Both the position numbers and the translations under genes were made by a program. Of a stretch of DNA of 64,000 nucleotides, positions 6,862 through 36,520 are shown piece after piece (the stretch's first letter is position 1; every line of letters starts with the position of its first letter). The notes beneath the pieces were generated by a model. That model did no database searches, was not told the DNA's origin, and was given only the letters and a program-made list of their open reading frames with translations. The stretch is from Candidatus Avelusimicrobium intestinale (GTDB lineage: Bacteria > Elusimicrobiota > Elusimicrobia > Elusimicrobiales > Elusimicrobiaceae): positions 190,697 to 254,696 of the forward strand of contig CACWYV010000002.1 of NCBI GenBank assembly GCA_902765225.1, in the 5' to 3' direction.

Positions 6862-7524
6862 ATGCAAGTAAAAAACGGGACCGTTCAAAAGGAAAACTTT
6901 ATTCATACCCCCCCCCCCCGTCGGTGGTGGATTCCTTCCGTCGTAAATAATAAAAAAAATGTCATTCCGTGCTTGACACGGAATCTCTCCGGTTTTACAT
7001 TAATTGAATTGTTGGTCGTCGTTCTTATCATTGGCATTTTGGCAAGTATTGCCGTGCCGCAATACCAAAAAGCCGTGGAAAAATCCCGCGCTACCCAAGC
7101 CTGGACGGTATTGGCGTCACTCATCCAAGCGCAGAAATCCTATCACCTGGCCACCAATAATTATGCTGCCCACTTTGACGAACTTACTCTGGAACTCCCT
7201 TGGACCGGGCAAGAAATGTGGGCCAATACAAATGTTACTGATACCCGTTCTAACGGTAGGTGGTCTTTGCAACTTTGGAACGGATCAACCACCCAAGGTA
7301 ACAATGGCCTCTATATAGGACAGATTATCGGTCGGTATAAAGGAACCGGCTTCACTTATTATTTTCAAAACAATATTTCTATCCCGAACGATCGGATTCT
7401 TTGTGCAGAACGTACCGGCAGGGGGGTTTTATTTGACCAAACCCCCGGGGATTATTGCCAACGGATTTTCAAAGGCACGTCGGTGTTCAGTGATTCAAAC
7501 ACCCGCCTCTACGCCATACCTTAA
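6862..7524 (+). CDS. Type IV pilin-like protein with long leader containing a C12 tract
   Basis: A 220-residue prepilin. The processing site is G44|F45 in [12 protein letters not shown], with Glu at position +5, followed by the usual hydrophobic helix and the QYQKAVEKSRA segment. The globular part has two Cys. The leader is 44 residues, far longer than the usual 6-15. It includes HTPPPRRWW encoded over a run of 12 C (6908-6919) and VIPCLTRNL encoded by an inverted repeat (6964-6984). The ATG at 6862 has a strong ribosome site (AAAGGATAATAAC). A TTG at residue 38 would give a 6-residue leader but has no ribosome site. It could be a major or minor pilin or a pseudopilin. Confidence 0.85.
   Translation: MQVKNGTVQKENFIHTPPPRRWWIPSVVNNKKNVIPCLTRNLSGFTLIELLVVVLIIGILASIAVPQYQKAVEKSRATQAWTVLASLIQAQKSYHLATNNYAAHFDELTLELPWTGQEMWANTNVTDTRSNGRWSLQLWNGSTTQGNNGLYIGQIIGRYKGTGFTYYFQNNISIPNDRILCAERTGRGVLFDQTPGDYCQRIFKGTSVFSDSNTRLYAIP
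6908..6919 (+). repeat. Homopolymeric C12 tract in pilin leader
   Basis: Twelve consecutive C lie inside the open reading frame, 46 nt after the ATG. Gain or loss of one base would shift the frame before the conserved prepilin signature. Such tracts are classic slipped-strand switches in surface-protein genes. Confidence 0.85.
6964..6984. repeat. Inverted repeat inside pilin leader
   Basis: ATTCCGTG and CACGGAAT form perfect 8-bp arms around CTTGA. The element encodes part of VIPCLTRNL in frame. Similar short palindromes, yielding the same peptide, occur as dispersed repeats in many bacterial genomes; other copies are not seen in this window. Confidence 0.7.
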
Positions 7525-35860: not shown

Positions 35861-36370
35861 TCATCCAGGCAACGCATAGTACTCTAACCCGCTACTAATA
35901 GTCATTTTATAGACTCCGCCCAGACTTTTACACACTTTCTTAGCAATTTCCGTTTCGGCTCCGCAATAATTATGCACCGCATGGTACATAAGTCCCCCAC
36001 CCCTGCAGTACATTGTCAAACTCCGTCCTTGGCTTGCCCCATCTTGTAGAAAACACCGAGTCTGCCTATCCTGCGAATAAATGGCTCTTCCCTCGCTCAC
36101 CACCGTCCAGCCGTTGGGAAGATCTATATCCAACTCCAAAAAATCAAACGTGTAGCTCCCATTGGCCATGCGATAGCGCTCTTCTGCCTGCATGTATGTT
36201 TTAGCCAGTGTCACCAGCTGTACATAGCGGCTTTTTGCTACTGCCACCTGGTACTGCGGTATAGCCACTGCCGCCAAAATACCAATAATGAGCACGACGA
36301 CTAAAAGTTCAATCAGCGTAAAGCCTTTGTTATTACCCTTCACGCTATCATTTTTTAATTGGATCTTCAT
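35861..36370 (-). CDS. Type IV pilin-like protein with homopolymer-bearing promoter
   Basis: A 169-residue prepilin with a 15-residue leader, processing site [12 protein letters not shown] and Glu at +5. The segment [17 protein letters not shown] is nearly the same as in the pilin at 6862. Several Cys in the C-terminal half (CFLQDG, MYCRGG, YCGAE, VCKSLGG) may form disulfides. ATG at 36370 has GGAGAGG just upstream. It is probably monocistronic. The promoter 35-63 nt upstream contains a run of 12 T. Confidence 0.88.
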
Positions 36371-36404
36371 ACCTCTCCCCACCCACAAAACACCCTACGG
36401 CAGT

Positions 36405-36433
36405 ATCCTAAAAAAAAAAAAGCCGAATGTCAA
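36405..36433 (-). promoter_or_regulatory. Pilin promoter with T12 tract in the spacer
   Basis: On the minus strand: TTGACA (36433-36428), a 17-nt spacer consisting of TTCGGC plus 11 of the 12 T, then TAGGAT (36410-36405), whose first base is the last T of the run (36421-36410). A change in tract length would move the -35 relative to the -10. Confidence 0.6.
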
Positions 36434-36492: not shown

Positions 36493-36520
36493 TAAAATTC
36501 AAACAATTGTTTGAATTTTA
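36493..36520. promoter_or_regulatory. Palindromic operator of the TetR regulator
   Basis: A perfect 28-bp palindrome with half-site TAAAATTCAAACAA. It covers the -35 element of the tetR-efflux promoter. Autoregulation by the adjacent TetR protein is the simplest reading; this is inference from position and symmetry. Confidence 0.8.

Follow-up and report, generated by a model that had tools for sequence, protein, structure and literature searches.

A 64,000-nt stretch of the Candidatus Avelusimicrobium intestinale genome (hereafter the window; C2:190697-254696 of a 1.41-Mb genome of 1,408,682 bases) contains a run of 12 T residues within the predicted promoter of a type IV pilin-like gene, which raises the question of whether the run is a product of base composition, a fixed structural element, or a mutable spacer whose length could set promoter output. 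Read directly on the minus strand from 36433 to 36405, the site is TTGACA TTCGGCTTTTTTTTTTT TAGGAT. The -35 hexamer TTGACA (36428..36433), the 17-nt spacer TTCGGC-T11 (36411..36427), the -10 hexamer TAGGAT (36405..36410) and the T12 homopolymer (36410..36421) all lie on the minus strand, and the spacer holds 11 of the 12 T residues, the twelfth being the first base of TAGGAT. The homopolymer thus lies between recognizable -35 and -10 boxes, and the initial annotation, which placed the two boxes exactly 17 nt apart with 11 spacer residues drawn from a run of 12, is correct base by base. A promoter scan also recovers TTGACA-17-TAGGAT, with 10/12 consensus matches and a spacer of 17, as well as an alternative -10 box, GATACT, with a spacer of 20 (36402..36407, minus strand). 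The weakness of the -10 box and the existence of an alternative count against a slippage-tuned promoter at this site.

By themselves, neither the run nor the promoter match is significant, and the site derives its significance from its genome setting. The expected count of T12 is 0.84 per 64 kb in the shuffled window, so base composition gives the run no special status, and we dropped it as a statistically notable feature in its own right. Promoter sites of similar score occur four times in the window, versus 2.5 expected from shuffles (i.e., near chance frequency), and the exact pair TTGACA-17-TAGGAT is found once only. A direct TTGACA-T12 pattern without intervening bases has no match, because six bases separate TTGACA from the T run. 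The run was also considered as a terminator and rejected, since the terminator scan shows none at the site.

The gene downstream (35861..36370, minus strand) encodes 169 amino acids and begins at an ATG at 36370, 35 nt from the predicted promoter; it is preceded by a Shine-Dalgarno-like GGGGAGAGG (36372..36380, minus strand), which is rated good from direct reading. Its product carries the GFTLIE form of the GFxxxE prepilin peptidase/methylation motif followed by a hydrophobic helix (Pfam N_methyl, TIGR02532), which agrees with the earlier assignment of the site as the promoter of a type IV pilin, the promoter itself being a prediction. The partial matches to GspG and PilA are both below cut-off, and the protein could instead be a minor pilin or a pseudopilin. 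The gene is flanked by dnaE and by a divergent TetR-type regulator, beyond which lies a TolC/RND efflux operon. A perfect 26-bp palindrome, AAAATTCAAACAATTGTTTGAATTTT, occupies window positions 36494-36519, in the interval that separates the pilin promoter from the TetR/CecR-like gene, which is divergent and belongs to the RND efflux operon; the pilin -35 box begins approximately 60 bp downstream of this palindrome, which is likely to be an operator.

T or A runs of at least 10 occur only five times in the 1,408,682 bases of the genome (T11, T13, T12, T42 and T14). All five are directly upstream of pilin genes, with T on the coding strand. The pilin query search yields 55 pilin-like places for the genome, and the chance that all five runs would fall in their upstream regions (300 bp each) is ∼2e-10. 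The cut is sharp: T runs of at least 8 number 109 genome-wide, versus five T/A runs of at least 10. The site was originally treated as a single case; the site is real, but the scale was understated, as it is one of five in the genome and of hundreds in the genus. The longest run that we saw, T42 (G000:C4:192191-192232; L043), is situated between a pilin -35 and -10, and represents either a dead tract that has expanded or a feature of the assembly. It gives a spacing of ∼40, so the promoter would surely be OFF if these boxes are the promoter boxes.

The same genome contains a second class of pilin-associated homopolymer. C runs of at least 9 are found at seven places genome-wide (C9-C12), all inside pilin leader codons, in a leader of the type MxxPKKENFIHTPPP ahead of the pilin motif; the remaining C8 runs of the genome fall outside pilin leaders. 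For all seven, one class of tract lengths puts the leader in frame with the pilin, as expected of a coding-homopolymer frameshift, and three are at present in frame (ON) and four out of frame (OFF), as read from the sequence with translation started at the ATG with the best ribosome site. One of these is a second pilin gene in the window (MQVKNGTVQKENFIHTPPPRRW...GFTLIE...; 6862..7524, plus strand; start codon 6862..6864, plus strand), whose leader contains a C12 tract (6908..6919, plus strand) that is in frame, whereas C11 or C13 would be out of frame. Homopolymers at this second position appear to undergo slippage-type switching in the same genome. As a general class the poly-C leaders were dropped, the pattern being confined to the window genome among 66 genomes of the genus. 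Pilin leaders (window positions ∼6960-6990; L042, L045, L053 and L057) also carry a dispersed repeat resembling GTCATTCCGTGCTTGACACGGAATCTCTCC that is read as protein, which we regard as a repeat exapted into coding leaders.

For comparison we used Elusimicrobiaceae/Elusimicrobium MAGs from gut and rumen, one of which (G011) has up to 236 candidates in the pilin query search. In the first contig set, 69 of 112 other pilin genes have an upstream run of at least 9 (66 T, 3 A); with further contigs added, there are 169 tract promoters at the relatives' pilins, 136 of the T type and 33 of the A type. T tracts are 9-14 long, mostly 12 or 11, and A tracts are 10-12, mostly 11. The usual forms are TTGAYT-TG-T12-GA-TAAATT, TTGACA-TCG-T11-GC-TACATT and TTGACA-AATC-A11-C-GATAAT, each of which yields a 16-nt spacer. 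Since TG-T12-GA, TCG-T11-GC and AATC-A11-C all add up to 16, it is the spacing that is held constant and not the length of the run, as is expected if the tract serves as a promoter spacer. The spacer is 16 in 122 of 169 promoters (72%) and 15-17 in 151 of 169, counts that are tilted slightly towards 16-17 because hexamers were picked by consensus score with ties broken in that direction; most of the exceptions carry a run that is one or two bases off. It is plausible that the window promoter is near optimal at its present length, as claimed, but relatives most often have a spacer of 16 rather than 17. A spacing of 16-17 fits the optimum of sigma-70-type promoters, so that most assembled copies, including that of the window, look ON-capable. 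The flanks upstream of the tracts in relatives exceed shuffles in structure by only a little (mean z -0.62), which also speaks against a terminator.

Such constancy could also be that of a fixed structural spacer: a rigid or curved A/T tract would determine how strong the promoter is, or attract a DNA-binding protein, and changes in length would be tolerated noise. The relatives' tract lengths are indeed tightly centred on T12 (T11 in G011), with a modal spacer of 16 across many paralogues, and this centring is a counterpoint to switching, as it implies that most copies are in one state. However, the same spacer is reached with different run bases (T or A) and different lengths, the C tracts in coding leaders cannot work in this way, and between orthologues no element changes faster than the tract. 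In the clearest case, contigs of two species-level MAGs (contigs L116 and L118) align over 4.7 kb at 95.2% identity with 225 substitutions and a single gap. This sole indel falls in a pilin promoter whose flanks are identical, where one contig has T9 and the other T12; another T12 tract within the alignment is unchanged. Three further orthologous pairs differ (T11/T12, T12/T13 and T12/T13), so that four of five aligned orthologous tracts are unequal, and the tracts are hypermutable relative to their flanks in this comparison of one genome per species, where homopolymers in MAG assemblies may be off by one. Among the tract pairs with the most similar flanks (at least 90% identity), five of seven differ in length. 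A one-base assembly error is possible for single pairs, but hardly accounts for the three bases of T9/T12. Invariance of the tract, which the initial annotation named as the outcome that would speak against its proposal, is thus not what is seen where flanks are near-identical, and the comparative evidence supports the proposal that slippage changes the promoter spacer. We consider a fixed structural spacer unlikely.

The orientation of the tracts provides a further line of evidence. Taking the G-rich strand by GC skew as leading, strand calls were made with wide skew sampling rather than local 3-kb skew, because pilin genes have a skew of their own. In three relatives, G016 (56 tracts), G015 (33) and G024 (26), whole contigs keep their T runs on a single strand; on G016:C1, for example, T is on the plus strand in 27/27 over 560 kb. 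On G016:C3 and G015:C6 the tract strand flips within the contig, and GC skew flips in the same interval. Over 376 kb of G011, T is on the G-rich strand in 60/60 runs of at least 9, and the tract-bearing pilins are partitioned without crossing, as all 32 on the leading strand have T-type promoters and all 22 on the lagging strand have A-type promoters (chance ∼1e-15 if independent). A quick tree of 63 G011 pilins has ∼19 changes of orientation and ∼18 of tract type, with the tract base changing along with orientation, so the association cannot be traced to a single ancient event. The rule holds for four of the five T tracts of the window genome (for C5 on weak skew), the exception being a T tract on the lagging strand at C1:326062. 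Judged from these assemblies, tract orientation follows replication, not the gene. Promoter structure alone leaves the use of A instead of T at lagging pilins unexplained. A promoter could work without the rule, which points to replication: slippage would be useful in one orientation only, or else long runs would survive in one only. To our knowledge, such a rule, with two promoter designs, is undescribed.

Two other explanations bear on this strand rule. The runs and their bias could be passive products of mutation without function, with long G/T runs building up on the leading strand. The seven C tracts of the window genome have G on the G-rich strand, and so do the C8 runs of ordinary genes (7/7), which is what passive accumulation would give. 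Shorter T runs in the same G011 DNA, however, are even by strand (T5 1035/1022, T6 444/403, T7 132/121, T8 19/19), so the bias is not due to ordinary composition; moreover, runs of at least 10 in the window genome occur at pilins only, and 54 of the 60 G011 runs of at least 9 are upstream of recognized pilins, typically between the promoter boxes. An origin by mutation alone is therefore highly improbable. Alternatively, the tracts could be strand-specific hot spots of recombination or gene conversion for pilin diversification, their promoter position being secondary, a logic comparable to that of the guanine-quartet element upstream of gonococcal pilE. The very large pilin families would suit this, as would the locking of tracts to a replication strand and a pilin tree that mixes orientations, yet in which promoter type follows strand. 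A hot spot would not account for the conservation of a 16-nt spacer between well-formed -35 and -10 boxes, and we regard this explanation as improbable, if slightly less so than passive mutation.

Replication slippage in the promoter spacer is the most economical account, and we think it quite probable that the T12 is a slippage-tuned spacer of a sigma-70-type pilin promoter and belongs to a genus-wide set. The homopolymer would set the spacer length, with T12 as its mutable part. At replication the run would gain or lose bases, each step shifting the -35/-10 spacing by one, and such steps would turn the window pilin up or down in a heritable and reversible manner. With many pilin paralogues that have tracts of their own, a population would hold many pilin combinations. 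Selection would hold most copies at a working spacing of 16-17 nt, with slippage continuing to generate neighbours. T would stay on the leading strand regardless of gene direction, probably because it matters for slippage, or for the survival of the tract, which of the two strands is copied discontinuously.

Runs of at least 10 number 0-205 per genome in the genus and in other genera of its family. In the sister family, which has larger genomes, they are mostly 0-6 (maximum 15), with 2-9 pilin hits. Loss of mismatch repair was considered as a cause and dropped: MutS1 and MutL are present in 27/27 genomes searched, although some fragmented assemblies (a few) have them split or incomplete, so there is no general mutator state.

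Promoter-spacer slippage is textbook, and is known mainly from a few pathogen loci. In Neisseria meningitidis porA, the length of a homopolymer in the -35/-10 spacer sets transcription, and in the vlp genes of Mycoplasma hyorhinis each paralogue has its own poly-A tract next to the -10 box. We know of no strand rule for porA or opc, and of no T/A swap by replication strand for vlp. According to PMC4081817, opc of N. meningitidis is a surface-protein gene with a promoter-spacer homopolymer whose length sets transcription (Sarkari 1994, cited in PMC4081817). The pilin promoters resemble porA and opc (poly-G/poly-C in the spacer) in that a homopolymer forms the spacer of a surface-protein promoter, but porA and opc represent one or two loci with G/C tracts, whereas here each genome has tens to ∼200 pilin paralogues, and the replication strand decides whether their tracts are T or A. 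The same paper describes vlp as paralogous surface-protein genes with poly-A promoter tracts (Yogev 1991, cited in PMC4081817); the pilins are likewise a paralogous surface-protein family with an A/T tract in each promoter, but are spread over the genome, unlike the small cluster of vlp lipoproteins. The paper also cites work on promoter repeats at two fimbrial loci, fim of Bordetella pertussis and hif of Haemophilus influenzae (Willems 1990, van Ham 1993, cited in PMC4081817), which are chaperone-usher systems with poly-C or TA repeats at few loci and not type IV pilin-like genes. In Helicobacter pylori sabA, a T tract of ∼13 tunes the output of an adhesin promoter by its length (PMC4081817), but its place is 5' of the -35 box and its effect is on the alignment of the UP element, whereas the tract here is the -35/-10 spacer itself. 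Finally, the pilus G-tracts of Bifidobacterium breve, a gut commensal whose pili are switched by replication slippage (PMC9187656), are similar to the poly-C coding tracts of the window genome, but represent an intragenic G tract, sortase pili and two loci.

The scale and the replication-strand rule are new, in that we did not find them described in the open-licence literature, where a search for phase variation or pilin genes in Elusimicrobia returned nothing relevant. Throughout a genus of gut bacteria that has received little study, scores of pilin genes at once would have slippage promoters, so that pilus composition would become a combinatorial lottery, which may explain the huge pilin families. 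The strand rule amounts to a natural experiment on whether A/T runs slip differently in leading and in lagging synthesis, and also bears on whether evolution tunes mutation rate locally. We suggest, with somewhat less than even confidence, that Elusimicrobiaceae maintain an exceptionally large repertoire of genes that switch independently by slippage (up to ∼200 pilins per genome), and that T- and A-tract designs of equal 16-nt spacer, by keeping one fork orientation, reflect selection on the direction of mutability.

Several minor features accompany the promoters of the relatives. In many of them (e.g., L103, L157 and L160), a perfect inverted repeat, GATAAATTTTGS-N6-SCAAAATTTATC, is found 3' of the T tract; the ATG is at its centre, and both the -10 box and the first codons are overlapped by it. 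Arms of at least 8 bp are present in 51 of 136 T-type promoters (48 with the ATG in the loop) and in none of the shuffles, the arms covary (GATACATTG/CAATGTATC in L089), and the repeat is missing from A-type promoters; is it an operator, or a start-site hairpin? In L131 (4693-4798), a pilin copy is broken after LIELLVVVL and an intact pilin motif follows 105 bp downstream, which suggests a tandem duplication at a tract promoter. A T10 tract at G011:C28 (L256:17448) has no recognized pilin and lies between divergent genes with signal-peptide-like starts, and is possibly a non-pilin member of the set.
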